Positions 9,434 to 31,184 of a stretch of DNA of 64,000 nt are shown one piece after another. The DNA comes from a virus, in IMG/VR virus record IMGVR_UViG_3300025598_000023, positions 47,325 to 111,324 of that record. One strand, 5' to 3'. Numbering within the stretch: the first letter of the stretch is position 1; every line of letters starts with the position of its first letter. The translations under genes and the position numbers were made by a program. Under the pieces are notes generated by a model that did not search any database, was not told the DNA's origin, and saw nothing but the letters and a program-made list of their open reading frames with translations.

Positions 9434-9454
9434 TATTTAAAGTGGGTTTTTGCA

Positions 9455-10651
9455 ATGTCTTATACATTAACAGTAGTTAATCACACACCAATTACGATTC
9501 AAAACGGCTCAACCGATAATACAACAAGTTTAACTTTGGTTGGTAAAAATTATCCGAATTATGGTCAACTACTACAACAAGATTTAATTAATTTGCTACA
9601 AAATTGGGCTGGTTCAAGTCAGCCCGTGAGTGCAGTAACAGGTCAACTTTGGTGGAATACAACATCAAATTCTCTACAAATCTATACTGGATCAGCTTTT
9701 AAAACAGTTGGTGGTGCCACTGTAAGTGCTACAGCACCTACTGCAACTCCAATACAAGGTGATTTTTGGTTCAAGAGCGATGACCAGACTGTTTATGTCT
9801 ATAATGGCAGCAGTTGGGCATTAGTGGGACCAAGTTATACAAGTGCACAGCAGTATACTACTTCAATTGGTATGACTATTACTGATAATACTAGTTCAAG
9901 TCATACTGTTTTGGCTTACTTTGTGGGTAACTACCTTACTGGTATTCTAAGCAAAGACCCTGCATTTACACCAGTAAATGGTGTAACTACAGATGGAAAG
10001 ACCATAAGCACTTTGTCAACAAGTGGTTTTAGCACTATATTACCTGGTTATAATATCAATACTACAATCTTTGGTGGTTCAACTCCACCACTAAGTGGAT
10101 TGCTTGTAACTAATGCACAACCTTATATTACAAGCCTTGGAAATTTAACTTCACTTAATGTTAATGGCACGTCTACTTTTACAGGTTCTATTCTTCCAAG
10201 TACAAGTAATGCTTATACATTGGGTAGTTCAACATATTGGTGGGCAACTGCTTATACCCAAAGTATTCAGGCAAAGTATGCTGACTTGGCAGAAAATTAT
10301 TTAAGTGATGATTTGTATGAGCCAGGCACAGTAGTTGAATTTGGCGGTGATGCAGAAATTACAATTTCTACCACAATAGGCGGAACAAATGTTGCTGGCG
10401 TTATCTCTACAAAACCAGCTTATCTTATGAATCAGAATGATAATCCATTTATGTTACCAGTTGCTCTACAAGGACGTGTTCCATGTAAAGTAGTTGGACC
10501 AGTAACTAAAGGTGACCTTTTAGTAAGTAATGGTTCAGGAGCAGCAATGGCTACTGCAGAACCAAAAGTAGGTAGTGTAATTGGCAAAGCATTGCAATCA
10601 ATAGCTGATACAAATATTCAAACAATAGAAGTGGTGGTTGGGGTAAGATAA
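9455..10651 (+). CDS. fibre-like structural protein, paralogue of the two upstream genes
   Basis: 398 residues. It has the same plan as the preceding gene: N-terminal module with SLTLVGKNYPNYGQLLQQDL and GQLWWNTT, a short shaft, then AKYADLAENYLSDDLYEPGT followed by GVISTKPAYLMN and QGRVPCKVVGPVTKGDLLVS. The shaft is much shorter than in its neighbour. The set of three looks like a duplicated fibre family that diversified in the central region. The stop overlaps the next ATG (TAATG), suggesting coupled translation with the detached C-terminal-domain gene. Confidence 0.75.
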   Translation: MSYTLTVVNHTPITIQNGSTDNTTSLTLVGKNYPNYGQLLQQDLINLLQNWAGSSQPVSAVTGQLWWNTTSNSLQIYTGSAFKTVGGATVSATAPTATPIQGDFWFKSDDQTVYVYNGSSWALVGPSYTSAQQYTTSIGMTITDNTSSSHTVLAYFVGNYLTGILSKDPAFTPVNGVTTDGKTISTLSTSGFSTILPGYNINTTIFGGSTPPLSGLLVTNAQPYITSLGNLTSLNVNGTSTFTGSILPSTSNAYTLGSSTYWWATAYTQSIQAKYADLAENYLSDDLYEPGTVVEFGGDAEITISTTIGGTNVAGVISTKPAYLMNQNDNPFMLPVALQGRVPCKVVGPVTKGDLLVSNGSGAAMATAEPKVGSVIGKALQSIADTNIQTIEVVVGVR

Positions 10652-11046
10652 TGTCTACATTAGCAATTGCAAATTATACAGAAGATTCTTATGATACAAA
10701 TTTACTTGTTGTAATTGATGGTGACAAAAGTGGTGTTGCACTTGCAACACAATCACACGACCCACGTGTTTTGGGTGTAACTACTGATTTAACAAATGCT
10801 GAATTAGTTTTAGGTGAATTTGGTAATGATGGAACATTACCTATGATTGCTGTTGGTGGCAAAGTTCAACTTTATGTTCAAGGACCAGTAAATCGTGGTG
10901 ATTGTATTGTTACAAGCAACCAACCTGGTATTGGTCAAAAACTTGATCCTACAAAGTGGGTACCTGGTTGTATCGTTGGTAAAACACTTGATAATATTGA
11001 TGATTCAAGTGTAAGTTTAGTAACAGTGGTGGTTGGTTTACACTAA
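10651..11046 (+). CDS. stand-alone fibre C-terminal domain protein
   Basis: 131 residues, starting one base inside the stop of the upstream fibre gene. It lacks the N-terminal module and corresponds to the C-terminal domain of the two genes before it: a LGVTTDL turn, then GGKVQLYVQGPVNRGDCIVT, a GxxVGK turn and a V-rich end (VVVGL). It may act as a free tip, a chaperone or a competing subunit for the fibres. Alternatively it is a fission product of a former fourth fibre gene. Confidence 0.65.
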   Translation: MSTLAIANYTEDSYDTNLLVVIDGDKSGVALATQSHDPRVLGVTTDLTNAELVLGEFGNDGTLPMIAVGGKVQLYVQGPVNRGDCIVTSNQPGIGQKLDPTKWVPGCIVGKTLDNIDDSSVSLVTVVVGLH

Positions 11047-11974: not shown

Positions 11975-12003
11975 TTGACATTACTATTAACATTTGATAA
12001 AAT
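11975..12003 (+). promoter_or_regulatory. sigma70-like promoter, possibly giving a leaderless transcript
   Basis: TTGACA at 11975-11980, a 17-base spacer, and TAAAAT at 11998-12003. The ATG of the next gene starts at 12010, about where transcription should start, and no Shine-Dalgarno sequence precedes it. The promoter would drive the glycosyltransferase and radical SAM operon separately from the structural genes. Confidence 0.55.
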
Positions 12004-12009
12004 TATCAC

Positions 12010-12330
12010 ATGACTCCAGAAGAACTGCGTGAACGGGCTATTGAAGCCTACAATCGTGATTTAGCAAAACAAAATATTCTAACTGCCATGGAATCACGCA
12101 TGACAGTAAATTATAATGATGGCGTATTCATCGTAACACAAGAACTTATAAGTTTCTTACATGCTTGGCAAGATGAATTGATTTATATGCTTGATGCGTA
12201 TGATGTTCCAATCCAAGTTGATGCCAACTATCTTAAAAAACTTTGCAAGCAACGCTGGCATGAAGTTATGAATGAATTTGCGTTAGAATACGAAGAGTAT
12301 AAAAAGATTCGTAATGCAAAACAACTCTAA
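12010..12330 (+). CDS. conserved hypothetical phage protein
   Basis: 106 residues, mostly helical and charged, starting MTPEELRERAIEAYNRDLAK and ending with a Lys/Arg-rich helix (EYEEYKKIRNAKQ). The pattern resembles a conserved protein of unknown function in T4-like cyanophages. It overlaps the next gene by 17 bases. It is the first gene after a sigma70-like promoter and has no visible ribosome-binding site. Confidence 0.6.
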   Translation: MTPEELRERAIEAYNRDLAKQNILTAMESRMTVNYNDGVFIVTQELISFLHAWQDELIYMLDAYDVPIQVDANYLKKLCKQRWHEVMNEFALEYEEYKKIRNAKQL

Positions 12331-13063
12331 AGGTTGTATCATATTTGCATACAACACAGATACTACTGACTATTTTAGTCAAGCAGTAGCGGCTGCTGAC
12401 AGGGTAGAGCATTATCTTAACATACCTACAACTATTTTTACAAACGAACCAAGAACTTGTAAACACAATGTCATACTTACGGAAACACCAGAAACCAATT
12501 ATAAACTTAAAAAACTTTGGCTCAATCGTAGCCGAACACGTGCTTTTGAACTTTCACCGTATGATAAGACGCTAGTAATTGATAGTGATTACTTTTTATG
12601 CACCGATAATCTAAACTATCACTTGCAAAGTTCTAAACAATTTTTAATAGCAAGTGAAGTTTATGAACCACTTACTGGCAAACGCACAGTCTATAATCTT
12701 GGTAAAACACAAATACCTATGATGTGGGCAACGGTAATGATTTTTGATAAGAGTGATGAAGCACGATGCATATTTGAGTGTGCAAGTTATGCTGAAAAAC
12801 ATTATAATTATTATAGTGATTTCTATGGTTTTAAACGACATCCAATACGCAACGACTATATTTTTACAATAGCCTGTCATCTTATGGGTGGTTATGGCAG
12901 CAAGTCATATGCACTACAAAATTATCCACTTGTAAATTGTTATGATATGGCATATCATAGTTGGGATAATAATAAGTTAGTTTACAAATACGATAGCGGT
13001 AAAGTTTATGGCAATCGGTTACAAAATATGGATTTGCATCTTATGAACAAGGATCAACTATGA
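12314..13063 (+). CDS. glycosyltransferase-like protein (GT-A type)
   Basis: 249 residues. Near residue 85 the sequence reads YDKTLVIDSDYFL; the DSD is a DxD-like metal and nucleotide-sugar site at the end of a hydrophobic strand, as in GT-A glycosyltransferases. The N-terminal strand GCIIFAYN with DTTDYFSQA fits the same fold. It overlaps both neighbours, one of which is a related protein. It probably transfers a sugar onto a virion or cell-surface target. The family is unassigned and the acceptor is unknown. Confidence 0.6.
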   Translation: MQNNSKGCIIFAYNTDTTDYFSQAVAAADRVEHYLNIPTTIFTNEPRTCKHNVILTETPETNYKLKKLWLNRSRTRAFELSPYDKTLVIDSDYFLCTDNLNYHLQSSKQFLIASEVYEPLTGKRTVYNLGKTQIPMMWATVMIFDKSDEARCIFECASYAEKHYNYYSDFYGFKRHPIRNDYIFTIACHLMGGYGSKSYALQNYPLVNCYDMAYHSWDNNKLVYKYDSGKVYGNRLQNMDLHLMNKDQL

Positions 13064-13905
13064 GTCGAGGATTTTTATGCATTGCACAGAATAGTGGTGA
13101 AACAGATTATTTGCGCATGGCATATCTACAAGCATTAAGTTGCAAGATAACACAATATGCACATCGTAATAGTTTTAGTGTTATTGTTGATCGTGAAACT
13201 GCTGATTGTCTTGAACAAAAACACATTGATGTATTTGATAATATCATTGTTTTAAAAAATGATCTTGCACAAAACAGCAAGGTAAAAATGCAGAATGAAT
13301 GTCAAGTTTTTAAGTATAGTCCTTATAAACAAACAATTAAAACCGAAGCAGATATGCTTTTTACGTCTAATTATGATTTTATTTGGGATCATTGGGCTTT
13401 TGACAAGTTCCACTTTTGCACCCATGTTTATACATATGATGGACATTTAATCAAAGACCGTAGTCAGCGTCAATTGTTTGATGATAGTTTATTGCCTGAT
13501 GTGTATAGTGCTTGGACATACTTTACATATGACTTGGAATGCAAAGAATTTTATGATACAATGCGTTTAATTATAGATGATTGGGATTATTATCGTGACA
13601 GTTATCTTGTAAATTGTCGCTATGATGAACCACGAACCGATGAAGTATATGCGCTGGCTTGTAAAATATTAGATATACCTTATAAAGGAAGCGGTTATGG
13701 TTTCTTACATATGAAACCAAAATTACAAAGACTTGGATTACATCAGTCATGGACTGAACAGTTAGATTTAGATGTCAACGCAGACTTAAATGTAACTATT
13801 GGTGGTTATAGACAAAATAAACCGCTGCATTATGTAGAAAAAACCTTTGTTACAGACGAATTGTTAAGTAGATATGAATATGGATATAAGCGAACAAGAG
13901 ATTAA
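13060..13905 (+). CDS. glycosyltransferase-like protein
   Basis: 281 residues, starting four bases inside the previous gene (ATGA). The start FLCIAQNSGETDYLRMAYLQAL parallels the upstream gene. The position of its DxD is taken by KTEADMLFTSNYDF (EAD), so the metal site is altered but plausible. The C-terminal half includes PRTDEVYALACKILD, typical of acceptor-side helices. It is likely a second glycosyltransferase of the same broad type; whether it is active is uncertain. Confidence 0.55.
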   Translation: MSRGFLCIAQNSGETDYLRMAYLQALSCKITQYAHRNSFSVIVDRETADCLEQKHIDVFDNIIVLKNDLAQNSKVKMQNECQVFKYSPYKQTIKTEADMLFTSNYDFIWDHWAFDKFHFCTHVYTYDGHLIKDRSQRQLFDDSLLPDVYSAWTYFTYDLECKEFYDTMRLIIDDWDYYRDSYLVNCRYDEPRTDEVYALACKILDIPYKGSGYGFLHMKPKLQRLGLHQSWTEQLDLDVNADLNVTIGGYRQNKPLHYVEKTFVTDELLSRYEYGYKRTRD

Positions 13906-14104
13906 AGCGTGGTGGGATGAGTTTGAACGTGAACTTGCTACTATGGTTAAACCAAATGATCCAAATCCACCGCCAAAACCAAGTATGGAACCACCTAGAC
14001 TACCTTCTTGGAAACGTGGCAACACATATTACACATTGGCAAATGACCGCCAGTTTCCTGTAGAACCCGAACACCCTAACGCCGTAGGCTGGAATTATGA
14101 CTGA
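13874..14104 (+). CDS. small hypothetical protein
   Basis: 76 residues, overlapping the previous gene by 32 bases; a second ATG at 13880 is an equally good start. The protein is rich in Trp, Glu and Pro, with ISEQEIKAWWDEFEREL then a Pro-rich linker (PNPPPKPSMEPPRLP) and RQFPVEPEHPN. It could be an adaptor or assembly partner of the neighbouring glycosyltransferases; no family is recognised. Confidence 0.5.
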   Translation: MNMDISEQEIKAWWDEFERELATMVKPNDPNPPPKPSMEPPRLPSWKRGNTYYTLANDRQFPVEPEHPNAVGWNYD

Positions 14105-15035
14105 ATTAATTGATATAAGTGAGTTAGATTGTATTTTTTTGAGTTACAAAGAACCAAATGCTGATAGTAATTGGGCATATTTGCGTTCTTTTGTCCCGTG
14201 GGCTAAACGTGTGCATGGCATAGAAGGCAGTGATGCAGCGCATAAAGCTGCCGCTGCTGTTAGTGAAACCGAACGTTTTATTTTGATTGATGGTGATAAT
14301 CAACCAAATCCAGAGTTTTTTAATCAACAGTTGCGCATTAATCAAACAAATGACCGTTGCGTATTTCGTTGGCGCGCTAGGAATGTAATAAACGGTCTTT
14401 GTTATGGCAACGGTGGGATCAGCAGTTGGACAAAAACTTTTGTAAACAATATGCGAACACATGAAGCCAGTGAAGGCGATGCCGACACTGTTGTAGAATT
14501 TTGCTTTGATGACAACTATTGGGCTATGCATGATGTTTGGAGTACTACTATTCCTAATGGTAGTCCACAACAAGCATGGCAAGCTGGATTCCGCGAAGGA
14601 GTTAAACTTTGTCTTGACCGTGGTCGTCGTCCTACACCAGAAGAATTTGAAAGTGTTACATGGGTAGGCAATAGAACTAATCTTGTTATTTGGTGCACAG
14701 TTGGCGCAGATGTAGATTATGGAAAACATGCCATTCTTGGTGCAAGACAAGGTGCTTATAAAACCATGTTTGATGATAGTTGGGATTATACTGAAGTGCG
14801 TGATTTTAATAAACTTGACAAATTATGGAATAATAGTTTAGAATATAGCGATAAAGAAAGTGAAGGATTTGCTCGTATTTTGCGCAACCGTTTAAACCTT
14901 GATATTGCAACATACAATGCAGAACAAAGCAAATGGTTTAAAAAGCATCAGCGAACATACCAGAATATTGATATTATGTTACCAGAAAGAGACGTAGGAA
15001 ATGTCATCAAAAGCGCAGCTAGACAACTCTGGTGA
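14097..15035 (+). CDS. glycosyltransferase-like protein, paralogue of a later fusion protein
   Basis: 312 residues. The N-terminus has DCIFLSYKEPNADSNWAYL, WAKRVHGIEGSDAAHKAAA and RFILIDGDNQPNP. The last includes DGD at a strand end, like the DxD of GT-A enzymes. The same motifs occur in the C-terminal third of the 968-residue protein at 23897-26803 (DIVFISYDEVQAD, AKRVHGVEGMENALAAAA). It overlaps neighbours on both sides. A sugar-transfer role fits the operon; the real activity is unknown. Confidence 0.6.
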   Translation: MTELIDISELDCIFLSYKEPNADSNWAYLRSFVPWAKRVHGIEGSDAAHKAAAAVSETERFILIDGDNQPNPEFFNQQLRINQTNDRCVFRWRARNVINGLCYGNGGISSWTKTFVNNMRTHEASEGDADTVVEFCFDDNYWAMHDVWSTTIPNGSPQQAWQAGFREGVKLCLDRGRRPTPEEFESVTWVGNRTNLVIWCTVGADVDYGKHAILGARQGAYKTMFDDSWDYTEVRDFNKLDKLWNNSLEYSDKESEGFARILRNRLNLDIATYNAEQSKWFKKHQRTYQNIDIMLPERDVGNVIKSAARQLW

Positions 15036-16440
15036 TGTCGCCACAGTAAATGTGGACAACACTCTTAAAAGTGATTTTTTATCTGCTGCTGAAAAGATGC
15101 AGTCAAAACTTGGTCATGCCCTTTGTCTTGCAAAGTGGCAACAAACTAGTTTGCATCTAACAACTGGTCATACAAATAGTTGTTACCATCCACCACTACA
15201 CAGGATTAATGTAGATGATCTCACCGATAACCCCAGTGCGCTACACAACACTGAATACAAAAAAGCGCAAAGACAGCGAATGTTACGTGGCGAACGTCCA
15301 GAAGAGTGCAGTTATTGTTGGCGAGTCGAAGCAACAGGAAACCTTAGTGATAGACACTACCGCAGTGGAGAGCCGTGGGCTGCCGATCATTACGATACAA
15401 TTATTGCTAGCGACCCTAATACTTGGAATGTTAATCCTGCTTATGTAGAAGTTAATTTTAGCAATGTATGTAACTTACAGTGCAGTTATTGCTCGCCACA
15501 ATTTAGCAGTGCGTGGCAAAAGGAAATAAATGAGCACGGTGCTTATCCTACTTCTAACCTTCATAATAGTCCTACTTACTTTGGGGGTGATCGTAAACCT
15601 ATACCGAATCGTGAAGTTAATCCTTATGTTGATGCGTTTTGGAGATGGTGGCCAGAACTCTACCCAAATCTAAAACATTTCCGTATGACAGGTGGTGAAC
15701 CGTTGTTAGATAAAAACACATACCGTGTTTTTGATTATGTGTTAGATAATCCTAAAAAAGATTTGCATCTTAATGTCACTAGTAACTTTAGTCAAGATGA
15801 ATATGTATTTGACAAATATCTAACTTACGTCAAACATATGTGTGGCAATGGTGTATTAGAACACTTTATGCAATTTGTTAGTATTGATGGTTATGGTGAA
15901 CGTGGTGAATATGGTCGTCATGGTTTAGATTTTGAACTCATGAAAAGGAATGTAGAACGGTTTTTGACAGAAGTTCCTAGCCGCAATAGCGTGACATTTA
16001 TTATTACAATGAATGTTTTAAATGTAACAAGCATACGTGAATTGCTGCAATGGATTACTGAATTGCGCAGCAAATACAGCACGACCTATCAACGTATTTG
16101 GTTTGATACACCTATTTTGCGTGAACCAGCTTGGCAATGTATTGATATACTACCTGAAAGTTATGCTTGGTTTTTACAGAACGTTGTTCATTGGATGCAA
16201 CCACAAACTGAAACAGTAGATACTCGATTCAATGGATTTAAAGATTATGAAGTTGTGAAACTACAGCGTGTTGTAGATTGGATGCACGAACATCGTCGTG
16301 AAGATAAAAAAACTATGGCAGACTTTTATCGCTTCTTTAATGAACATGATTCTCGTCGCAAAACTAATTTCTTAAAAATCTTTCCAGAAATGAGTGATTG
16401 GTATAACACTTGTAAATATTGGGCTGATAGCAATGTATAA
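15001..16440 (+). CDS. twitch-type radical SAM protein 1
   Basis: 479 residues. The [4Fe-4S]-SAM motif CNLQCSYC (CX3CX2C, residues 157-164) follows VEVNFSNV, and a MTGGEPLLD segment fits the radical SAM GGE motif. The N-terminal region has SCYHPP, ALHNTEYKKAQRQRMLRGER and PEECSYCW, a Cys-containing pattern repeated in the following genes and typical of twitch-domain radical SAM proteins. It starts 35 bases inside the upstream gene behind GTAGGAA. The substrate is unknown; the context suggests modification of a glycan or protein. Confidence 0.85.
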   Translation: MSSKAQLDNSGDVATVNVDNTLKSDFLSAAEKMQSKLGHALCLAKWQQTSLHLTTGHTNSCYHPPLHRINVDDLTDNPSALHNTEYKKAQRQRMLRGERPEECSYCWRVEATGNLSDRHYRSGEPWAADHYDTIIASDPNTWNVNPAYVEVNFSNVCNLQCSYCSPQFSSAWQKEINEHGAYPTSNLHNSPTYFGGDRKPIPNREVNPYVDAFWRWWPELYPNLKHFRMTGGEPLLDKNTYRVFDYVLDNPKKDLHLNVTSNFSQDEYVFDKYLTYVKHMCGNGVLEHFMQFVSIDGYGERGEYGRHGLDFELMKRNVERFLTEVPSRNSVTFIITMNVLNVTSIRELLQWITELRSKYSTTYQRIWFDTPILREPAWQCIDILPESYAWFLQNVVHWMQPQTETVDTRFNGFKDYEVVKLQRVVDWMHEHRREDKKTMADFYRFFNEHDSRRKTNFLKIFPEMSDWYNTCKYWADSNV

Positions 16441-17461
16441 ATTTCCACTTTGGCATTGGCACATTGAAAATAGTAGTATTTGTAGCTTGCGTTGTCCTCG
16501 CTGCCCTCGCGCAGAAATTCCCGATACACTTGTTCAAACTAGTCTTGGTTTAGATTTTTTTAAGAAGAATTTTAATCCAGAATTTATGCAAGACGTTTGG
16601 CAAATTAGTTTTTGTGGTGATGATGGAGACCCAATTTATGGTAAGGAATTTTTAGAAGTAGTTGAATATTTAAAAACTACAAAACCTAATTTAAGTTTAC
16701 GCATTGTTACTAATGGAAGTTTTAGGAACGAATCTTGGTGGAAAAAACTTTCTCATAACTTGAATCAATATGATGAAATTCATTTTAGTTTGGATGGATG
16801 GGATCAAGAAAGCAACGAAAAATACCGTGTCAATAGTGATTGGGATAGTATAACAACTGCTATAAAAACTGTCAGAGAAAATAGTAATATTATAATGACT
16901 TGGGCTGCAATTGCTTTTAAATTTAATCAGTATGATATTATTACTATGAAAGATTTAGCCGTTAAATGGAATTTTGATATATTTCAACTTACCTACAGCA
17001 CAAAGTTTGGTAGTAAGTATCCTAATTATAATACCGATGGAAAAGACGAGCTTGAACCAAATTCACAATTCATTGCAAAGGGACATAGGTTTAGTCGTGA
17101 AATAACGAATCTCACTGATAGAAAAATACTAGACAATGGTAAAAACCAAATAAATTTAGATTTATATCAAAACATTAATAATGTTAACGATATAATTCCA
17201 CTTTGTAAGATTGGTAATAAAGGTCTTTATATTAGTAGTGAAGGATATTTTTATCCATGTTGTTGGATGGCAAATAGGTATAATCATACACGTTGGCAAG
17301 AGTTTCGTCAGCCACAATATAACTTGAACAAAAGAAACATAAGTGATATATTAGGCGATGAAATGTGGGACAATTTTTTTAATAATTTAAACAATTATGA
17401 TGAATGTAAAAATAAATGCTGTTCACAAAATTTTAATGAGGGATATGCGACATCGTGGTAA
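16433..17461 (+). CDS. radical SAM protein with C-terminal Cys cluster
   Basis: 342 residues from the ATG at 16433, which overlaps the previous stop by eight bases. CSLRCPRC (residues 17-24) is a CX3CX2C SAM cluster placed right at the N-terminus. C-terminal cysteines (a CK..., YPCCW and an ECKNKCC segment) could hold auxiliary iron-sulfur clusters as in SPASM proteins. It differs from its neighbours in lacking the long N-terminal twitch region. Substrate unknown. Confidence 0.8.
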   Translation: MYKFPLWHWHIENSSICSLRCPRCPRAEIPDTLVQTSLGLDFFKKNFNPEFMQDVWQISFCGDDGDPIYGKEFLEVVEYLKTTKPNLSLRIVTNGSFRNESWWKKLSHNLNQYDEIHFSLDGWDQESNEKYRVNSDWDSITTAIKTVRENSNIIMTWAAIAFKFNQYDIITMKDLAVKWNFDIFQLTYSTKFGSKYPNYNTDGKDELEPNSQFIAKGHRFSREITNLTDRKILDNGKNQINLDLYQNINNVNDIIPLCKIGNKGLYISSEGYFYPCCWMANRYNHTRWQEFRQPQYNLNKRNISDILGDEMWDNFFNNLNNYDECKNKCCSQNFNEGYATSW

Positions 17462-18816
17462 GAAGCAAACGTCCAGATGAATCTTTTTTAGAATATAAGC
17501 AGCGTATTCTTGATACTAAAAGTGCATCATTCTGTGGTGCTAAGTGGTATAATGCTACAATTTGGCTAGGTAGTGGGCAAACTACAAGCTGTCATCACCC
17601 ACTGCCGCATCAAGTAAGTGTAGAACAAGTTTTGGCTAACCCTGCTGCATTGCATAATACTCCAGAAAAGAAACAACAACGATTACAAATGCAAAAAGGT
17701 GAGCGTCCAAGTGGTTGCGAATATTGCTGGCGTATTGAAGATTCATCTCCTACTGCCATCAGTGACCGTCCTTATAAAAGCATGCTATATAGTGAAGAAG
17801 AACTAAACACTGCATTTAATACACTGTATAAATTAGATGTTAATCTTCGAACATTGGAGATAGCCTTTGACCGCACTTGTAACTTTGCTTGCAGCTATTG
17901 CAATCCCGCTTTTAGCACTACTTGGGTTAAAGACATTAAAGTTAATGGACCATATACCAATCTGGTTAGTGATGGCCGCAATCATTTTACCCATCTACAT
18001 GATAGTTCTCAGTTATATGGTTTCACTGACACTAATCCATATGTAGAAGCATTTTTTAAGTGGTGGGAAAGTGATCTACATAAGACACTACGTGAATTGC
18101 GTATTACTGGTGGCGAACCACTTATGAGTGGTCATACTTGGAAACTACTTGATTGGTTTAAATTAAATCGTGGCAAAAGTGAAACAAAACTAGCTATCAA
18201 CAGCAATCTTGGCATGGATAATAAAAAGTTAAATGAATTTATTGAAGCTGTTCGTGATATTCCACACGTAGAAGTTTATACAAGCTGCGAGGCATTTGGT
18301 AGTGCAGCAGAATATATTCGTGATGGTTTAGATTATAACCAATGGTTTGATAATCTTGTTGCACTGCATAGCAGCGGTGTAGTTAAACAATTGCATGTTA
18401 TGGCAACTATCAATGGTTTATGTTTGATGTCGCTTCCTAAATTCTTAAAACACATGATGGATTTTAAGATAGGACGAGGAAAAAGTTCTTTAACTTTTAC
18501 GCTCAATATTTTACGTTTTCCTAGTTTCCAAAGTCCAACTGTTATGCCACACAATGTTCGTGAAAATTGTGCAGTTGAATTAGAAAAATTTTTAAATAGT
18601 TACGAACATAGTAATTATTTGCATCAAATGGAAATTGAACATATCAAAAGATTAATTGAATACCTTCGCAAAGTTGAAACACCTCACGAAGGTGCAAGTA
18701 ATAAAAATGTGTTAGAAAAAGATTTTAAAAATTTTTATGAACAATATGATGTTCGTCGTAATAAAAATTTTATAAAAACATTTGCAGAATTGGAAAATTG
18801 GTATAGTGGCTTATAA
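17455..18816 (+). CDS. twitch-type radical SAM protein 2
   Basis: 453 residues from a GTG overlapping the previous stop by seven bases. The SAM cluster CNFACSYC lies at residues 142-149, and a ITGGEPLMS segment follows. N-terminal SCHHPLPH, AALHNTPEKKQQR and GERPSGCEYCWR match the first gene of the array closely, so the two are paralogues. The C-terminus (FYEQYDVRRNKNF) also matches that of the first (FFNEHDSRRKTNF). Confidence 0.85.
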   Translation: MVRSKRPDESFLEYKQRILDTKSASFCGAKWYNATIWLGSGQTTSCHHPLPHQVSVEQVLANPAALHNTPEKKQQRLQMQKGERPSGCEYCWRIEDSSPTAISDRPYKSMLYSEEELNTAFNTLYKLDVNLRTLEIAFDRTCNFACSYCNPAFSTTWVKDIKVNGPYTNLVSDGRNHFTHLHDSSQLYGFTDTNPYVEAFFKWWESDLHKTLRELRITGGEPLMSGHTWKLLDWFKLNRGKSETKLAINSNLGMDNKKLNEFIEAVRDIPHVEVYTSCEAFGSAAEYIRDGLDYNQWFDNLVALHSSGVVKQLHVMATINGLCLMSLPKFLKHMMDFKIGRGKSSLTFTLNILRFPSFQSPTVMPHNVRENCAVELEKFLNSYEHSNYLHQMEIEHIKRLIEYLRKVETPHEGASNKNVLEKDFKNFYEQYDVRRNKNFIKTFAELENWYSGL

Positions 18817-20095
18817 TTATAACGGTAAAGAACCAATCAAGATTGAAGTTGACCAATTAAGTAATAAGCACAAAGAGCTTATTTTTGAAAATAAAACATT
18901 TTGCATGTATCCGTGGATTCATCTACATGCCTTTCCAACTGGTGAAGCATATCCTTGTTGTAATACAGAGATGAGTGAAACTGTTGGTAATACACGTTAT
19001 GATACTCTTGAAGAAATATGGCATAGCGCACCTATGCGTGATATTCGTAGTAAAATGCTTGCTGGTGAACATGTAAAAGGTTGCAACCGTTGTTATGAAC
19101 AAGAACAAAACGGTTTCTTTAGTATGCGTATGAGTGCCAATAAACATTTTGGGCATCATATTACTTTAACTGACAATCCTACACCACCAATGAAAATGAT
19201 TTATTGGGATATCAGATTTTCTAACTTATGTAACTTAAAATGTCGTAGTTGTGGTCATATCTTTAGTAGTAACTGGTATGATGATCAGGTTAAGTTATTA
19301 GAATTAGAACAAGCTACTGCTGAAAGTTGGAAAACAAGAAATACAAGAATAAATTTTGCTGGAAAAACCGAAGATGATATTTGGGAACAGCTAGAACCAC
19401 AGATTGATAATCTTGAACAAGTATATTTTGCTGGTGGTGAACCACTTATTATGGAAGAACATTATCGTCTTCTCAATGAACTGATTAAACGTGGTCGTAG
19501 TGATGTACGATTAATTTATAATACTAATTTTAGTCAGCTTACTTACAAGAAAACAAATGTGTTAGAATTGTGGCGTGAGTTTAATAGTGTCAGTGTTGGA
19601 GCAAGTCTTGATGCTATGGGTGCTCATGCTGAATATATTCGCAAAGGAACCAAGTGGTCGCAAGTTGAACAAAATCGTGAGCAAATGTTAAAGATTTGTC
19701 CTAATGTAGATTTTTACATAAGTCCTACCCTAAGCATTATGAACGCTCTGCACTTGCCTAAATTTCATCGTGAATGGGTGAATCGTGGCTTTTTAAAACC
19801 ACAGGATTTAAATATTAATATACTACAAGACCCACCACATTATCGTATTGACGCATTGCCATTCCAGTATAAAGTAGATATACAAGAATTATATCTAGAG
19901 CATATTAAATGGTTAAAACCTCAAGATAAATTAACTCGTGCAACAATTGGTTTTGAAAGTGCAATTAACTTTATGATGGCAGATGATAAATCAGATTTGT
20001 TGCCAAAATTTATTCAAAAAACCGCGCAACTAGATAAAATAAGAAATGAAAATATATTAGATGCAATTCCAGAGTTAGGGTATTTGTATGAATAA
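18806..20095 (+). CDS. twitch-type radical SAM protein 3
   Basis: About 429 residues from a GTG at 18806, which overlaps the upstream stop by eleven bases; a TTG at 18782 would add eight residues. The N-terminal twitch-like part has TFCMYPWIHLHAFPTGEAYPCC and KGCNRCYEQE. The SAM cluster CNLKCRSC is at residues 142-149, followed by VYFAGGEPLIM. It is in the family with CMYPW/CC/CNRC cysteine pairs shared with the next two genes. Confidence 0.85.
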   Translation: MAYNYNGKEPIKIEVDQLSNKHKELIFENKTFCMYPWIHLHAFPTGEAYPCCNTEMSETVGNTRYDTLEEIWHSAPMRDIRSKMLAGEHVKGCNRCYEQEQNGFFSMRMSANKHFGHHITLTDNPTPPMKMIYWDIRFSNLCNLKCRSCGHIFSSNWYDDQVKLLELEQATAESWKTRNTRINFAGKTEDDIWEQLEPQIDNLEQVYFAGGEPLIMEEHYRLLNELIKRGRSDVRLIYNTNFSQLTYKKTNVLELWREFNSVSVGASLDAMGAHAEYIRKGTKWSQVEQNREQMLKICPNVDFYISPTLSIMNALHLPKFHREWVNRGFLKPQDLNINILQDPPHYRIDALPFQYKVDIQELYLEHIKWLKPQDKLTRATIGFESAINFMMADDKSDLLPKFIQKTAQLDKIRNENILDAIPELGYLYE

Positions 20096-21287
20096 TATTT
20101 GTATATTGCCTTGGATTAGTATAGAAACAACACCACTTGGACAAATGCGAGTTTGTTGTTTAGCAAATGAAAATATTAAAGATACGAATGGCAAAGATTT
20201 GCTCATTGAAAACACAACACTATCATCTGCTTTTGTAAGTGAATATATGAATGATCTTCGTAAGTCTTTTATAAATGGTGAAAAACCATCTGTGTGCAAT
20301 CGTTGTTGGAGCGAAGAAGAAAGTGGACGAACTAGTAAGCGACAAAATAGTTACAATCGTCTTGGTAATCTTGTAAAGCATATTGATTTTAGTAATCCAA
20401 ATAGTGGTGATTTAATATTTCTTGATTTAAAATTAGGAAACATTTGTAATCTTAAATGCAGAATTTGTGGTAGTTTTAGTAGTTCAAAGTGGGCGCAAGA
20501 AGAAATAGAAATTAATAAAGAATATCTTACTGAATATCATAGACCAGCAAAAGAGTTCTTAAGACAAGGACAATGGCCTCGACAAGTTTCTGCTTTTTGG
20601 AATGATTTAGATGTTTTGCTGCCACACATCCGCTATTTGGAATTTACAGGTGGTGAACCATTTTTAATCACCGAACATTTTGACTTTTTGCGTCAAGCTA
20701 TAAATCTTGGTGTTGCAAAAAATATTGAAATTCATTATAACACTAATGGAACACAGTTTCCTGAAGATGCAATAGATATATGGAAACAATTTAAACTTGT
20801 AGAAATCGCACTTAGCATTGATGATATGGGTGCAAGATTTGAATATCAACGTTATGGTGCTAAGTGGGATATTGTTGAAAAAAATTTAAAAAACTTTAGA
20901 GACTTGCGAGATAAAAATAAGAATATTGTGCTACAATTATGTTTAACTGTAAACGCATTAAATTTTTATTATATAGATGAAATATTAAATTGGGTTCCGC
21001 ATCAAATGTTTAATTACCATTATCTTAATGTAGTTCATGATCCACCACATTTTTGTATTAAGAACCTTAATGATGATGCAAAAGAAATGATAACAAGAAA
21101 AATTTCTCAAGCAAATATTCCATCTATATTTGTTGATGAAATTAAAAATTTATTGCAATTTATGAATAGTGGAACTGGCACAGATTGTTCATATCTGATA
21201 CAAGTATTACGTGATAGTGATAAATTTCGCAAACAACATCTTGCAGATCATCATCCAGAGTTGGCGGCAGCGATTGGTTATGAATGA
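20088..21287 (+). CDS. twitch-type radical SAM protein 4
   Basis: 399 residues, overlapping the previous stop by eight bases. Cys positions ICILPW, VCC and SVCNRCW in the first 75 residues match the twitch region of its neighbours. The SAM cluster CNLKCRIC is at residues 120-127, followed by LEFTGGEPFLI. A DPPHF segment near the C-terminus parallels DPPHY in the preceding gene. Substrate unknown. Confidence 0.85.
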   Translation: MNNICILPWISIETTPLGQMRVCCLANENIKDTNGKDLLIENTTLSSAFVSEYMNDLRKSFINGEKPSVCNRCWSEEESGRTSKRQNSYNRLGNLVKHIDFSNPNSGDLIFLDLKLGNICNLKCRICGSFSSSKWAQEEIEINKEYLTEYHRPAKEFLRQGQWPRQVSAFWNDLDVLLPHIRYLEFTGGEPFLITEHFDFLRQAINLGVAKNIEIHYNTNGTQFPEDAIDIWKQFKLVEIALSIDDMGARFEYQRYGAKWDIVEKNLKNFRDLRDKNKNIVLQLCLTVNALNFYYIDEILNWVPHQMFNYHYLNVVHDPPHFCIKNLNDDAKEMITRKISQANIPSIFVDEIKNLLQFMNSGTGTDCSYLIQVLRDSDKFRKQHLADHHPELAAAIGYE

Positions 21288-22584
21288 TTTTTGTGTAGCA
21301 CCGTGGACACATACATATATCTCACCTCAAGGTGAACGCCGTTTATGCTGTGCATCACGTGAACCTGCACAGAACTTTAAACAATATATTGATACCGCTG
21401 GTGGTAATGGACAATTTAATCCGCTTACATTAAAGGAATGGTGGAATGGTGAACATATTAGGGAAATTAGAAAACAATGGTTGTCTGGTGAAGTTCCTTC
21501 TGCATGTGAAGTCTGTGATAAGAAGTTACTTAATACCTCTGTTTATCGCGATTACTTTGGTCACTTGTTTGGTCATATTAGATCAGATATACAAGCTAAT
21601 ACTGATGCTGATGGTTATACAACTTTAGAACCAATCTCATGGGACTATCGTTATAGTAATGTATGCAACTTCAAATGTCGCATGTGTGGCGATATGTTAA
21701 GCAGCGCGTGGGAAGTTGAAGTTCGCAAAAATTCTATGGTTGATTTGTCTAATCCAAAGAATTATTGGATGCAACCAAAGAACCGCCATGCTATCCGTGA
21801 TTTTACTCGTGATGTTGTAATACCAGAATTTAAACAAGCCATTGAAAACAAAAGTGTGCGCGAAATTTACTGGGTAGGTGGCGAACCACTACTTTATGAT
21901 GAGCACTGGACATTCATGCGCCGTATAATTGAATTGGGGTATGCAGATCAAGTTCGTGTGCGATATAATACTAATTTAAGTTATTGCAAAGATTCGCAAG
22001 GAACACTTTGGGATTTATTGCAACACTTTCCGCATTGGGAAATATGTGCAAGTTTAGATGGAACAGGAGCGATTGGTGAATATATTAGAACTGGCCTTGA
22101 CTATGATATGTTTTTACAAAATTTTAGACACGGTGTTGAACAATCAAAACATCCTCGTCAGATGCGTATCGACTTTACTCTTACTACCCCTGGGTTATTT
22201 GATTTGGAAAATATCATCGCTCTTGCTGATGAACTGAATGTTGAATTATTAAGTAAGGTAGTATTTGCTTTCTCGCCTGACATACTAATAAGCCCCTTGG
22301 CACTACCTAGAATGGTGCTAGAACCACTTTTAGATGGTATACAGAAGCGTATTAAACCGCTCATTACTCGTCGCACACAAAGTTTATGGGATGTTCTAGA
22401 ACATCTTAAAACTCGTCCTACATTTGCAGAACAGTTTTCTGATACCTATAAACGTGAGGCAATTCGTGGTAAAACGCATCTTTTAAAATTGGAATCTATT
22501 CGCAAAGATGCTAAAATAAAAATGGAAGATATTCTATCAAGTGAACCAACTGTTCTATCATGGTGGAATTCTATTGGTGAATAA
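21280..22584 (+). CDS. twitch-type radical SAM protein 5
   Basis: 434 residues from the ATG at 21280, overlapping the previous stop by eight bases; upstream in-frame codons lack conserved content. FCVAPWTHTYISPQGERRLCC and ACEVCD give the N-terminal twitch cysteines. CNFKCRMC (residues 129-136) binds the SAM cluster, and YWVGGEPLLY follows. It is the last of six consecutive radical SAM genes. Confidence 0.85.
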   Translation: MNDFCVAPWTHTYISPQGERRLCCASREPAQNFKQYIDTAGGNGQFNPLTLKEWWNGEHIREIRKQWLSGEVPSACEVCDKKLLNTSVYRDYFGHLFGHIRSDIQANTDADGYTTLEPISWDYRYSNVCNFKCRMCGDMLSSAWEVEVRKNSMVDLSNPKNYWMQPKNRHAIRDFTRDVVIPEFKQAIENKSVREIYWVGGEPLLYDEHWTFMRRIIELGYADQVRVRYNTNLSYCKDSQGTLWDLLQHFPHWEICASLDGTGAIGEYIRTGLDYDMFLQNFRHGVEQSKHPRQMRIDFTLTTPGLFDLENIIALADELNVELLSKVVFAFSPDILISPLALPRMVLEPLLDGIQKRIKPLITRRTQSLWDVLEHLKTRPTFAEQFSDTYKREAIRGKTHLLKLESIRKDAKIKMEDILSSEPTVLSWWNSIGE

Positions 22585-22585
22585 C

Positions 22586-22798
22586 ATGATAGAAGATTGT
22601 GGTAAGTGCTATGAATGTCTTAAAAGTAAAACGATTAAGATGCGTTTTAAAGATGATAGTTATTATGATATGCCTATAGTTAATACTCGCATGATACTTT
22701 GCGTGGAATGTGGCAATAAGCGTTGCCCACATGCTACCGACCATCGTTTTACGTGCACTGGAAGTAATGAGCCAGGTCAAATAGGAAGCCGATACTAA
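22586..22798 (+). CDS. small Cys-rich protein
   Basis: 70 residues, starting one base after the last radical SAM stop. Two cysteine pairs, CGKCYEC near the start and CVECGNKRCPHATDH near residue 40, suggest one or two zinc sites or an iron-sulfur site. The C-terminus (FTCTGSNEPGQIGS) resembles a small conserved phage protein often seen in aquatic phages. Its stop overlaps the next ATG (TAATG). It may support the neighbouring enzymes; function unknown. Confidence 0.65.
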   Translation: MIEDCGKCYECLKSKTIKMRFKDDSYYDMPIVNTRMILCVECGNKRCPHATDHRFTCTGSNEPGQIGSRY

Positions 22799-23904
22799 TG
22801 ACTGTTATAATGACCCTTCGCAATCCTTTAAATAAAGAAGATTTATTGCCTGTAATTATTGAACCTAATGAAACACAGTTAGCAGTAGATTGGATGGCTG
22901 CATTAAAAGTAGAACTACAGCGCAATAGTATTTTAGAAAAGAATTATTGTTGGCACGGTTGGCCAAATGGCGCAAGAAACCTAGAGTATCTTACTAGTGA
23001 ATTAAGTCGTCATGCGTTAAACATTTGGAAGTATAATGAACTCGGCATATGGCAAAGTGCTGGTTTAGCTAATATAAAAATTGAAACTGTTTATACACCA
23101 GAAACAGTTATGTTGCCATTAACTGAAGTAAAAAACAGTGGTGGTCCAAATCATGATGTTATGAATATCGTGCATAATTACTTTGAACATTTACAAGGCA
23201 CGGTTGAAAATTTAAGTCCATATTACAAACTAGCTCCACCAAATATCAAATATAGTATAAGACAACTAAACAATCTTTGCCATGAAATTGAAACACTATG
23301 TTTAAGTTTGCGAAAGCAGAAACATAATCCAGATTGGGTTCGTCCAAGCCAAATAACAACATTTCTGAATACCGTTCGTTATAATTTAACAGATGAACAT
23401 CGCAATGGGTTTATAACTAATGGTTATGACCGTAAATTTGCTCATGTTTATATGCATTGGACACAAATTGGTAAAACGCTAATGGAGGTATTCCGTGATG
23501 AAGGTGCTCCCATTTTAGATCAAGCTACATGCGATGCCATCACACATTTGCAATATTACAGTGGAGAGTTTGATATTGAGTGGGGTCGTGATGTTTGTTA
23601 TGGAAAACATGATTGGCATACACGCGAGATTGATGCTTTTAATAAATGGTTGCGGCGTGAAGGTTACAATCCAACTGATACATCACTAAGTCTTGGTTAT
23701 CTGGAACTTGGTTCTATAAATTTAGAAAAAAGTTTTGGAACAACTGATATTACAAAGATTTGGGATATAATGGGTAACTATCTTGACATATATAGTCTTG
23801 AAGTTGATGGACAAACCGCTGTTTACGATTACATTTGGAGTGATGAAGATCACGAACAACGCCAAATTAATTATTTGATGCCTGGTTACAATAGTCATGT
23901 TTGA
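22798..23904 (+). CDS. conserved unknown protein at the end of the radical SAM array
   Basis: 368 residues, no family recognised. His, Glu and Asp residues are clustered: HDVMNIVHNYFEHLQGTVE, NNLCHEIETL, VYMHWTQIGKTLMEVFRDEG and FDIEWGRDVCYGKHDWH. The pattern of H...E pairs on predicted helices could bind metal. It is coupled to the small Cys-rich gene (TAATG) and overlaps the next gene by eight bases, so it very likely works with the radical SAM and repeat/glycosyltransferase proteins. Confidence 0.65.
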   Translation: MTVIMTLRNPLNKEDLLPVIIEPNETQLAVDWMAALKVELQRNSILEKNYCWHGWPNGARNLEYLTSELSRHALNIWKYNELGIWQSAGLANIKIETVYTPETVMLPLTEVKNSGGPNHDVMNIVHNYFEHLQGTVENLSPYYKLAPPNIKYSIRQLNNLCHEIETLCLSLRKQKHNPDWVRPSQITTFLNTVRYNLTDEHRNGFITNGYDRKFAHVYMHWTQIGKTLMEVFRDEGAPILDQATCDAITHLQYYSGEFDIEWGRDVCYGKHDWHTREIDAFNKWLRREGYNPTDTSLSLGYLELGSINLEKSFGTTDITKIWDIMGNYLDIYSLEVDGQTAVYDYIWSDEDHEQRQINYLMPGYNSHV

Positions 23905-26803
23905 TACCTATTGGTATGATTATGCAGATTGCAATGATATTAAAGAATTAATTGCCAAAGCAATTGCTTCCAGTCGCACCGAATATATTTGGCTGCGTCA
24001 TCGTGCAGTAGATTATACTAATTTTAATTTACGATTTATTCCACCGCGACATCAATCAAACATGTTGCATGCTTGGGCAAGTCATGATAATCCAAAATGT
24101 TACACAACGTGGTTAATACCAATTGAAAATTATGGTGAGATATTTTATCACGATGGTATATTACCTATTGTACAACAACCAACTTGGACAACAAGCGAAC
24201 AAGTATTATATGATGGTTTTAATTTTAATTGGTACCCTGATGTATGGGATTGGGATAAACAACATCACTTTGCAATGGATGGCACTACTCAATTATCTTA
24301 CACAAGTGTAGGAAATGGCAATGAAGTAAAATATCATATTAGCAACTTGCGTTTTAAATCTATAGGTGTTTGGTATGATACAGATATTATAGATGATTCA
24401 CCTTATGAATGGAATTGGATTGCAGATAATCGTATTGACTATACCGATTTTAATTGGAACTGGTTGCCTGATAGATGGGATGCAGATAAAATACATGAAT
24501 TTTGTATGTGGGGCGCGGAACAATTATCTTATACACGATTAATGCGTCGAAATTGTAAAAAAGAAAAAGTCTATCACTCCTCATATCTTACTTTTAAGAA
24601 TATTCCTAAATTGCATCAATTAGAATCTATAGATAGCGAGTGGATTTGGATTATTGACGAGCGTATAGATTATAGCAACTTTAATTTTAATTGGTTGCCG
24701 CCAGCGTGGGATATTAACAAAACACATGCGTTTGTCATGAGTGGCACAACACAACTTGCCTATACTTTTTTACACAATACAAAGCATGCAAGCAAACAAA
24801 TAAAGTATCATATAACAGATTTAAAATTTGATGCTACAAAACAAAATGATGAATGGGTTTGGGAAACAGATGAACGCATAGATTATAGTCATTTTGATTT
24901 TGATTGGTTACCAGATGCATGGGATGCAAATAAAACTCATGCTTTTGCTATGCATGGAACCGAACAGTTGTGCTATACTTTTTTACGCAATACAAAAGTT
25001 GAAAGTGTTGAAACAAAATATCATAAAACAGATTTGCGATTCAAAAGTGATATTGAAAATGATGAATGGGTTTGGATTAAAGACGATAGAATAGATTATA
25101 GTGATTTTGATTTTGATTGGTTACCTGATGCGTGGGATGCCGATAAAACACACGTATTTTGTATGGCTGGCACAAAACATCTAGGATATACTAAACTTAT
25201 AAACACCAATATTAAAAATCCCAAAATAATTTATCACAGCAGTAATTTAAAATTTTTACCACAAGTGCGTCCAGTCATTTATTGGCAAGATTACACTAAT
25301 AGTTTTAATTTAGAAACGTTTAAATCATTAGCAATGGGAAGTGAATGGACATGGATTGCTGATCGTCGCATTGATTATAGCGATTGGGACTTTGATTGGT
25401 TACCTGATGGATGGGATACGAATTATATTCATTGTTTTACAATGAAAGACAAAGAACAATTAAGTTATACTATTCTTATTCACAGAGATGCAATTACAAA
25501 TTTCGTAGATTACAAATATCACACAGCACAGCTACAGTTCAATGATACACATGCTGACATGTGTTTAATTAACACGAACTCATTTGATAATACTATTACG
25601 CAAGACTTTCAAGTTCGTTTAATTACAACAATGGAAGAAGCAATCAAAGCTGCTGTTGCAAAAAGTAAACGTGAATGGTTATGGCTTTATAGTGATTGTT
25701 GTGAATATGATGGTTTTGATTGGTCATGGTTGCCAGACCTTGATCAACGTGAACAAGTGCATTGTTGGCCAAGTGGAACTTGTGAAAAAGGCGATACATT
25801 TTTAATACACGTTCCAAGTTTTAATCCTAATAAAATTAAGTATAATTTTGAACATAGTGCAGTTATCAGAAAAAAATGGACACTTGTCAATTATAAAGAG
25901 GACAATTTAGCCCAAGCCTTACAATACAAAAGCAGTGCAATATACACTATTTTTTGCAAGGAGACTATAGGTAATATTCCTGATGTTTGTTTATGGGATA
26001 AGCGACCTATAATATCTTTAAACAATTCCAATAGTTCAAGTTTAGTGCCTCGTGATTGTATAGTAAAAAAAGAAATATACGAGTATCCGCATCTTATGAA
26101 AATATCAGAAGATATAAAAACACAATATGATATTGTTTTTATAAGTTATGACGAAGTTCAAGCAGATGAAAATTATGTTAAATTATTAGAATCATATCCA
26201 CATGCCAAACGAGTGCATGGTGTAGAAGGAATGGAAAATGCATTGGCTGCTGCAGCTAAATGTAGCAATACTGACTATTTTTATGCTGTTTTTGCTAAAA
26301 CAAAATTATATGAAAGTTGGGATTTTACAACCGAACCAGATTACTGGCGTGATCCTCGCAACTATATCTTTTATGCTATTAATACATCAAATGATTTGGT
26401 ATACGGTGAAATGGGAATTGTTTTGTATAACAAAAAATTCTTACTTACTGCGCCATCTTACGATGAATTAGGAATAGATTTTACTATGAGTTTTCCAGTT
26501 CAGGTAATTCCACAAATTAGTGCCTATGGAGAATTTGCCACTGACCCTTATCGTGCATGGAGAACTGCTTTTCGTGAAACATGTAAGTTAGCATACTTTA
26601 ATAGCCAAAAATCATGCATTGAAACTCAATATCGTATTAACCAATGGAAAACTTATGCTCATGGTGAACATGCAGAAGACGTTTTAAGAGGTGCCAATGA
26701 TGGATATCAATATTTTATTGAAAATAGTGACGATTTGTCAGCACTTAAGAAAACATTTCGTTGGGATTGGCTCAAGAATTATTATAATTCCAAATACAAC
26801 TAA
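23897..26803 (+). CDS. eight-repeat Trp/Asp-rich protein fused to glycosyltransferase-like domain
   Basis: 968 residues. Residues about 29-650 hold eight related units of roughly 70 residues. Each has a pattern EW.W..D.RIDYS.F.F.WLPD.WD, then H.F.M.GT..L.YT, then YH...L.F. Residues about 740-870 match the paralogue at 14097 (DIVFISYDEVQAD, AKRVHGVEGMENALAAAA, TDYFYAVF), but the DGD of that gene is replaced by AVF, so metal-binding may be lost. The gene closes the plus-strand operon and overlaps the convergent aminotransferase gene by 32 bases. The repeats may be a binding array; activity unknown. Confidence 0.7.
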   Translation: MFDTYWYDYADCNDIKELIAKAIASSRTEYIWLRHRAVDYTNFNLRFIPPRHQSNMLHAWASHDNPKCYTTWLIPIENYGEIFYHDGILPIVQQPTWTTSEQVLYDGFNFNWYPDVWDWDKQHHFAMDGTTQLSYTSVGNGNEVKYHISNLRFKSIGVWYDTDIIDDSPYEWNWIADNRIDYTDFNWNWLPDRWDADKIHEFCMWGAEQLSYTRLMRRNCKKEKVYHSSYLTFKNIPKLHQLESIDSEWIWIIDERIDYSNFNFNWLPPAWDINKTHAFVMSGTTQLAYTFLHNTKHASKQIKYHITDLKFDATKQNDEWVWETDERIDYSHFDFDWLPDAWDANKTHAFAMHGTEQLCYTFLRNTKVESVETKYHKTDLRFKSDIENDEWVWIKDDRIDYSDFDFDWLPDAWDADKTHVFCMAGTKHLGYTKLINTNIKNPKIIYHSSNLKFLPQVRPVIYWQDYTNSFNLETFKSLAMGSEWTWIADRRIDYSDWDFDWLPDGWDTNYIHCFTMKDKEQLSYTILIHRDAITNFVDYKYHTAQLQFNDTHADMCLINTNSFDNTITQDFQVRLITTMEEAIKAAVAKSKREWLWLYSDCCEYDGFDWSWLPDLDQREQVHCWPSGTCEKGDTFLIHVPSFNPNKIKYNFEHSAVIRKKWTLVNYKEDNLAQALQYKSSAIYTIFCKETIGNIPDVCLWDKRPIISLNNSNSSSLVPRDCIVKKEIYEYPHLMKISEDIKTQYDIVFISYDEVQADENYVKLLESYPHAKRVHGVEGMENALAAAAKCSNTDYFYAVFAKTKLYESWDFTTEPDYWRDPRNYIFYAINTSNDLVYGEMGIVLYNKKFLLTAPSYDELGIDFTMSFPVQVIPQISAYGEFATDPYRAWRTAFRETCKLAYFNSQKSCIETQYRINQWKTYAHGEHAEDVLRGANDGYQYFIENSDDLSALKKTFRWDWLKNYYNSKYN
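23981..25855 (+). repeat. eight tandem coding repeats (about 210 bp)
   Basis: Eight imperfect units encode the Trp/Asp-rich module. The period is near 210 bases in the centre (starts near 24637, 24850 and 25060). Units five and six are similar at the DNA level, for instance the shared GATGAATGGGTTTGG at both starts and GATTTTGATTGGTTACC inside, which points to recent duplication. Outer units have diverged and spacers vary. Confidence 0.75.
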
Positions 26804-31183: not shown

Positions 31184-31184
31184 A

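Follow-up and report, generated by a model that had tools for sequence, protein, structure and literature searches.

A conserved phage operon built around five N-twitch radical SAM enzymes, with a possible role in glycan modification

In a 64,000-nucleotide stretch of viral DNA (the window, bases 47325–111324 of the 111,324-base IMG/VR virus record IMGVR_UViG_3300025598_000023), an array of radical S-adenosylmethionine (SAM) genes forms the core of an operon, s12-G12-G13-X-G14-R15-R17-R18-R20-R21-U22, which is conserved in related phages. The five R genes of this core encode enzymes of one family, in which a twitch half precedes the radical SAM domain, and they fall into two pairs and a single. 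The operon is tentatively assigned to a glycan pathway directed at the host rather than at the virion. The record itself is probably a fragment of a jumbo phage of the T4 superfamily, since a comparison with 50,697 phage records places its DNA polymerase closest to those of Phosso (49%) and Atu_ph07 (45%), both giant phages, and next to those of other phages of ~350 kb.

Genes are named after their starts in the window. The features of the module are listed below in window coordinates; bit scores refer to NF033640 (N_Twi_rSAM, twitch domain-containing radical SAM protein; curated cut-off 170 bits), orthologue counts to the retention of the seven cluster cysteines, and counts of 62 to the loci of the gene order comparison described below.

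11975–12003, + strand: sigma70-type promoter at the module head, TTGACA-17-TAAAAT with TG before the second hexamer, 11 of 12 positions matching
12010–12330, + strand: s12, opening gene of the module, encoding a small conserved protein of 106 aa; in 52/62 loci, no NCBIfam family at 1e-10
12314–13063, + strand: G12, GT8-type glycosyltransferase-like protein; hhalign to G13 99.4%, E 3.3e-21
13060–13905, + strand: G13, GT8/glycogenin-like glycosyltransferase; profile match to glycogenin-1, E 2.7e-5, profile 4–112
13874–14104, + strand: X, open reading frame (ORF) in the slot between G13 and G14; a 76 aa relative, with the middle part missing, of a ~118 aa protein found there in relatives
14097–15035, + strand: G14, conserved partner protein of the array, bearing a conserved DGDN motif; weakly GT2-like (Pfam GT2 matches in 2/42 members)
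15001–16440, + strand: R15, N-twitch radical SAM protein, 348 bits; cluster cysteines in 75 or 76 of 76 orthologues
16433–17461, + strand: R16, radical SAM protein with a C-terminal SPASM match, accessory; in 9/62 loci
17455–18816, + strand: R17, N-twitch radical SAM protein (305 bits) in the sister clade to R15; cluster cysteines in 81/81
18806–20095, + strand: R18, N-twitch radical SAM protein, 407 bits; cluster cysteines in 78/78
20088–21287, + strand: R20, N-twitch radical SAM protein (347 bits) in the clade closest to R18; cluster cysteines in 74/74; AlphaFold2 model with a predicted local distance difference test score (pLDDT) of 88.8
21280–22584, + strand: R21, N-twitch radical SAM protein, 285 bits; cluster cysteines in 66 or 67 of 67
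22541–22798, + strand: cysteine-rich protein of 85 aa, accessory; no family matched, matches in two loci, one of them identical to the window
22798–23904, + strand: U22, conserved partner, modelled as a cyclophilin-like barrel with a helical insert (AlphaFold2 pLDDT 92.7)
23897–26803, + strand: D23, repeats followed by a C-terminal G14-type domain (hhalign to G14 98.6%)

A first-pass annotation of the window had described six consecutive genes with a CX3CX2C motif between 15001 and 22584 and three further radical SAM genes elsewhere, and a motif scan bears this out. Of the 62 window ORFs examined, exactly nine carry the motif (15001, 16433, 17455, 18806, 20088, 21280, 27848, 35561 and 49986), against a chance level of 0.084 ORFs on average when residues are shuffled within each ORF. 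All nine match PF04055, which has a tenth match in the full record outside the window, at C1:25707-26192. Consecutive genes of the array overlap by 8, 7, 11, 8 and 8 bases, within the range of 7–11 given earlier. Loss of the motif from several members, which would have spoken against the array, is not seen: all six genes keep it, and the cluster cysteines are near-invariant among orthologues of R15, R17, R18, R20 and R21.

The six genes are not all of one kind. Five of the array genes, together with R49 elsewhere in the window, score above the NF033640 cut-off, and in all six of these proteins the twitch half precedes the radical SAM domain. Four N-terminal cysteines (C5, C23, C70 and C73 in 20088) and those of the CX3CX2C motif are invariant in 6/6 members; the first-pass annotation had noted twitch-type cysteine pairs in five array genes. 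R16, by contrast, has no NF033640 match; its SPASM match lies at the C-terminus (258–329) and scores 20.1 against a Pfam cut-off of 21.5, which marks it as an ordinary radical SAM/SPASM-type protein. Thus the array described as six-membered consists of five N-twitch core enzymes and an accessory gene. The family members share only 19–29% identity with 20088, and those of the array form five separate clades of old, distinct paralogues; recent tandem amplification, already doubted on first inspection, was rejected on these grounds. Selection on the array genes is purifying, with ratios of non-synonymous to synonymous substitution (dN/dS) of 0.07–0.18 for the six radical SAM genes against close relatives, albeit by the NG86 method and with dS often above 1.

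To compare gene order, loci were gathered from IMG/VR with R20 as query (36 loci) and with R17 as query (at least 599 candidates, of which the best 80 were taken), giving 116 loci in all. The R17-derived loci are biased towards close relatives and contain R17 by construction. Most of the 116 share a single arrangement with inserts at a few places, whilst L036–L048 are distant relatives without it. The latter carry other radical SAM relatives (25–31% to the window genes), scattered or directly beside a DNA polymerase gene. From 79 loci with distinct R17, the 62 spanning G14 to U22 were used and 17 without both were dropped, so that R17, G14 and U22 are here selection criteria. Counting fusions, R15, R17, R18, R20 and R21 are present in 62/62. 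As separate genes, R17, R18 and R21 occur 62 times each, R15 61 times and R20 58 times, the remainder being fused (R15-R17 in L070; R18-R20 in L019, L020, L027 and L091). All seven genes from G14 to U22 are separate, ordered and on the same strand in 56/62 loci; the one exception not due to fusion is L096, where U22 precedes R21. The X gene was missed in the first-pass annotation; its slot holds an ORF of at least 40 aa in 67/68 loci, albeit a weakly conserved one.

Loci chosen by their DNA polymerase provide an unbiased check on the presence of the module. Nine of 80 such records, the longer contigs, were searched for R17 and five of these for G14. Both genes, with R17 in full, are present in 5/5 records of at least 80 kb; no full R17 match was found in the four smaller fragments, one of which gave a partial match of 114 bits. 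NF033640 matches number 5–17 per record in 30/30 records. Among the 50,697 phage records, tblastn at 1e-5 returned no match for R17, G14, G13 or U22, whilst R20 has 3 matches and R18 26 (E 0.01), nearly all in Vibrio phages. Vibrio phage K566, a cultured phage that carries related genes, has two NF033640 members above the cut-off.

Other genes vary around this fixed core. A SAM synthetase gene is carried by only 3/15 records, and not by this one, and was therefore rejected as part of the module. An A-type iron-sulfur carrier is encoded in 10/15 records, most of them large, and none was found in this 111 kb fragment; such a carrier fits a high demand for clusters. Variable genes within or after the module, tallied against Pfam and NCBIfam for 120 of 216 clusters, include NodU-type carbamoyltransferases (7), GDSL proteins (3), sugar dehydratases (2) and more radical SAM proteins (10), along with a flavin halogenase, a GHMP kinase and an APS kinase. 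Some module proteins bear extra fused domains: R15 in L075 and L080, R18 in L083, L087, L119 and L120, and C-terminal additions in L104 and L073 that look SGNH-like by eye.

The phage R15, R17, R18, R20 and R21 proteins form five groups in a FastTree phylogeny (155 of 599 rows, several long branches flagged), in which R15 joins R17 with support 97 and R18 joins R20 with support 93. The only fusions among the radical SAM proteins of the module unite these same nearest pairs: R18-R20 in 14 loci (12 contigs) and R15-R17 in L070. Because natural fusions coincide with sister relationships, R15-R17 and R18-R20 may work as heterodimers. The proposal that each array gene may act on a different site fits five conserved, non-redundant subfamilies; the fusions, for their part, suggest that two paired sets and a lone enzyme are at work in place of six separate ones. 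The groups also have their own further near-invariant cysteines beyond the cluster sites (C281 and C471 in R15, C323 in R17, C285 in R20, C256 in R21), and it may be guessed that they would suit different chemistry.

The first-pass annotation had called the flanking genes glycosyltransferase-like, which applies to only part of them; the downstream partner U22 matched no glycosyltransferase in any search made. The U22 model aligns with a cyclophilin-like chain over 139 of 368 residues (VIA Z 8.9, root-mean-square deviation 3.5), a middling match. Foldseek found none for it in the PDB at E 0.001, and 10 in BFVD at the same threshold, from uncultured phages and Agrobacterium phage Atu_ph07. Its conserved histidines, glutamates and cysteines are C51, H126, E130, C161, H162, E163 and E165. 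An Oligoflexia contig (L240) encodes a 635 aa protein in which radical SAM (17–172) and SPASM (281–371) regions, both slightly below Pfam cut-offs, are followed by a G14 domain (388–603, hhalign 99.7%). For D23 nothing matched in Pfam or PHROGs, nor in NCBIfam at 1e-10; this 968 aa protein contains several repeats around 'WLPDAWDADKTHAFAM'.

The genes from s12 through D23 follow one another nearly without gaps, and a sigma70-type promoter stands at their head. Upstream of s12 such a promoter matches at 10 or more of 12 positions in 38/60 distinct regions and at 11 or more in 20/60, compared with 3.3% and 0%, respectively, in single-base shuffles. Upstream regions of other genes served as a further control: at 10 or more of 12 positions the motif precedes the tail gene tf11 in 2/53 cases and other module genes in 0–8 of 63–88. 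Since the promoter and the unbroken run of genes coincide, we read the module as its own operon, putatively under host-type transcription and separate from the tail genes. It would then function early in infection. Late expression together with the tail genes was dropped once the promoter at s12 stood out against the controls. CTAAATA is a late-promoter motif of such phages. Its only + strand copies in the window precede 9455 and 11068, and among relatives it stands before tf11 in just 5/52, which makes it weak support. CTAAATA is rare in the window as a whole (3 occurrences against 17.4 expected, all upstream of genes), as if kept for regulation, and the same may be said of TATAAATA (1 against 9.95 expected).

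Relatives of the array are also found in cells. One R17 scan of a species-genome collection gave 13 loci, all from metagenome assemblies in which binning error is possible. Three of them (L129, L130 and L134) are phage contigs in bins, because their gene order matches that of the phage module. The remaining ten have no phage genes of the module kind in the stretch, and eight are Bdellovibrionota by title. Matches to an R20 profile number 1–22 in each of these ten genomes. The largest number belongs to the genome of L229 (G040:C7:82000-101999), where seven radical SAM genes of the N-twitch kind lie close together after ATP synthase genes. All five enzyme types occur in L132, a Bacteriovoracaceae locus beside an obgE-like gene. 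Polysaccharide-type genes adjoin L139, L230 and L232. G14 was found in 1/10 of the cellular genomes with the enzymes and U22 in 0/10, the U22 search being without a positive control. In four Bacteriovoracaceae loci (L131, L132, L136 and L138) a protein of ~290–320 aa with a nucleotidyltransferase-looking stretch stands beside R15 or R17; the L132 copy has no Pfam match.

From these observations a pathway may be proposed in which one operon makes or tailors a glycan, with the radical SAM array as its catalytic core. G12, G13 and G14 would act as glycosyltransferase-type proteins. Sugar carbons are predicted to be oxidised, epimerised or rearranged by the R15-R17 pair, the R18-R20 pair and R21, which would rely on 5'-deoxyadenosyl radicals together with a second iron-sulfur cluster. 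U22, with variable additions that in relatives include carbamoyltransferase, SGNH esterase, sulfation-type and dehydratase genes, might finish the product. The likeliest purpose would be remodelling of the host-cell surface during infection, as in receptor masking or superinfection exclusion, because a host sigma70-type promoter heads the operon. A host-directed glycan is favoured over a virion one because this promoter sets the operon apart from the tail genes and because cellular homologues lie beside polysaccharide genes. The earlier idea of a dedicated modification pathway thus survives in its tie to glycosyltransferases, and the choice it had left between a surface polymer and a virion protein now leans towards the host. 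What is observed is the gene content and order, their conservation, the cluster cysteines, the fusions, the promoter motif and the link to GT8; heterodimeric pairing, the sugar as substrate, the time of expression and the purpose of the module are what we infer from this.

Several observations weigh against this assignment. The timing derives from a motif, not from RNA. Four cellular loci (L132, L133, L229 and L231) have no sugar genes alongside. G12 has no direct PDB match by profile at E 0.1, and weak Pfam GT2 matches to G14 appear in just 2/42 members. The nearest solved folds to R20 are mixed and nearly tied, comprising peptide enzymes (SkfB, CteB, anSME), nucleotide enzymes (viperin, BlsE) and sugar enzymes (DesII, SpeY), and the attempt to decide between peptide and sugar from the fold was for that reason abandoned. 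Moreover, the module lies directly after the tail-fibre genes and on the same strand, a position that also suits modification of the virion.

On this last ground the glycosyltransferases and radical SAM enzymes might instead build a glycan for the virion, decorating the tail fibres or adhesins encoded just upstream. In most loci tf11 and other tail genes directly precede the module on the same strand, and the radical SAM genes of CP220 and, from the portions of its description available, of phage 332-Vera likewise stand among or after tail genes. Yet the operon has its own sigma70-type promoter after tf11, at s12 and hardly ever at tf11 itself, and Bdellovibrionota contigs carry N-twitch arrays with no phage genes at all; modification of the virion therefore appears rather unlikely. 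A role in radical maturation of a peptide or protein, in which the twitch enzymes would alter the side chains of some protein, whether from phage or host, in the manner of SPASM-type maturases of ribosomally synthesised and post-translationally modified peptides (RiPPs), is suggested by SkfB, CteB and anSME, which are among the relatives of NF033640 as well as the closest folds, and by the many NCBIfam near matches that are peptide maturases. Against it, the neighbouring gene families point to sugars and no precursor-like peptide was seen, although no search aimed at precursors was made. X, the sole small gene in a fixed slot, was rejected as a RiPP precursor on account of its weak conservation and the loss of its middle part in the clade of the window. 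We consider peptide maturation unlikely.

DNA hypermodification, whereby glycosyltransferases and radical enzymes would produce an altered base as protection for the phage genome, would suit a host-type promoter, and phage glycosyltransferases acting on DNA are reported in passages of PMC12619734. The thymidylate synthase at 31185 is however an ordinary one (TIGR03284, 333 bits against a cut-off of 108), and homologues of the array exist in cells outside any phage, which makes this explanation very improbable. The host-directed glycan reading can be extended to a bolder model that we regard as doubtful: a fixed assembly line of five radical SAM enzymes with N-terminal auxiliary-cluster domains, organised as two obligate heterodimers and one further enzyme, would carry out several successive C–H reactions on one glycan. 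In this model predatory Bdellovibrionota and a clade of jumbo phages share the enzymes and have passed them to one another as a set, and the phages run them early so as to change the surface of the host. The question of function becomes concrete once the genes are seen as a fixed operon of five parts, with two naturally fused pairs and defined partners. If the product is a surface glycan, jumbo phages would have a way of altering host surfaces by radical chemistry, and the Bdellovibrionota, a phylum of predatory bacteria, would offer a parallel.

Phages rich in radical SAM genes are already known from reports of 2010, 2017, 2020 and 2025, and an array as such is not unique to this phage. The NF033640 model, for which R15, R17, R18, R20, R21 and R49 qualify, comes with no information on arrays, pairs, fusions or substrate. 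Timms (2010) described 11 and 12 radical SAM proteins in the Campylobacter phages CP220 and CPt10, with a module of five (PMC2853527). As far as the available parts of that paper go, the likeness extends to a virulent phage with five clustered radical SAM genes near sugar-transferase-type genes, and the module is described as interchangeable, whereas that of the window is a fixed core. In the CP220 record the module lies downstream of baseplate genes and is accompanied by genes for an amidinotransferase and two proteins of nucleotide-diphospho-sugar-transferase type. Of its seven NF033640 matches none exceeds the cut-off, so that it differs from the window's operon in not being N-twitch, as well as in the amidinotransferase. 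Nishimura (2017) reported a T4-like marine genome of 183 kb, TARA_ERS488813_N000010, that encodes an A-type iron-sulfur carrier along with 12 radical SAM genes (extracts of PMC5332604); by description it resembles the relatives of the window in being T4-like and in carrying both, whereas array structure, subfamilies and partners are not described in those extracts.

In pelagimyophages, according to excerpts of PMC7029224, radical SAM cassettes and glycosyltransferases occupy the tail-fibre region and the authors argue for modification of the host O-chain. Those cassettes are variable additions to a host-recognition cluster, in contrast to the fixed operon seen here. Aeromonas phage 332-Vera has eight radical SAM genes within its tail structural cluster and is reported, in the sections of PMC12390700 from which it was compared by description, as belonging to another family and encoding chimallin and tubulin. 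Radical SAM and glycosyltransferase genes occur together in Tasman Sea phages (PMC7150976, in part). Other large aquatic phages are described in PMC12619734 and PMC9723584, and word searches in the accessible text of these two found no report of radical SAM genes. The literature searched, some of it in partial form, offered no function for phage radical SAM sets beyond guesses. The fixed five-part operon, the paired fusions, the promoter and the Bdellovibrionota counterparts were not met there and appear to be new.

Three features on the opposite strand contain the remaining radical SAM genes of the window.

26772–31276, − strand: variable deoxyamino-sugar cassette comprising DegT (QdtB-like), DesII-like radical SAM (27848), DegT and SDR genes, by PDB and family matches
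35561–37018, − strand: B12-binding-type radical SAM protein, outside the module, by profile matches
49986–51083, − strand: R49, another N-twitch radical SAM protein, likewise outside the module, NF033640 222 bits

The 27848 protein matches DesII (dTDP-4-amino-4,6-dideoxyglucose ammonia-lyase) over residues 72–453 (PDB, E 1e-66). DesII is its nearest PDB relative, yet the 27848 protein scores 327.9 bits with the DesII equivalog TIGR04426, under the cut-off of 450, and it is not part of the array. Its neighbours are a QdtB-like aminotransferase at 26772 (E 2e-72), a second DegT gene at 29221 and an SDR gene at 30305. Together they suggest a desosamine-type deoxyamino-sugar cassette whose product is likely a dTDP-3-amino-3,4,6-trideoxy sugar. 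Relatives of DesII were found in only six viral contigs. Both 27848 and 35561 add to the sugar theme from outside the array. Near the latter lie a MoxR-type ATPase-like gene (37113) and a VWA-like gene (33834), judged from sequence. Upstream of the module, the tail-fibre-like genes 7798 and 9455 (window 7798–11046) seem on inspection by eye to have a C-terminal domain in common, which also recurs alone as a 131 aa gene at 10651.

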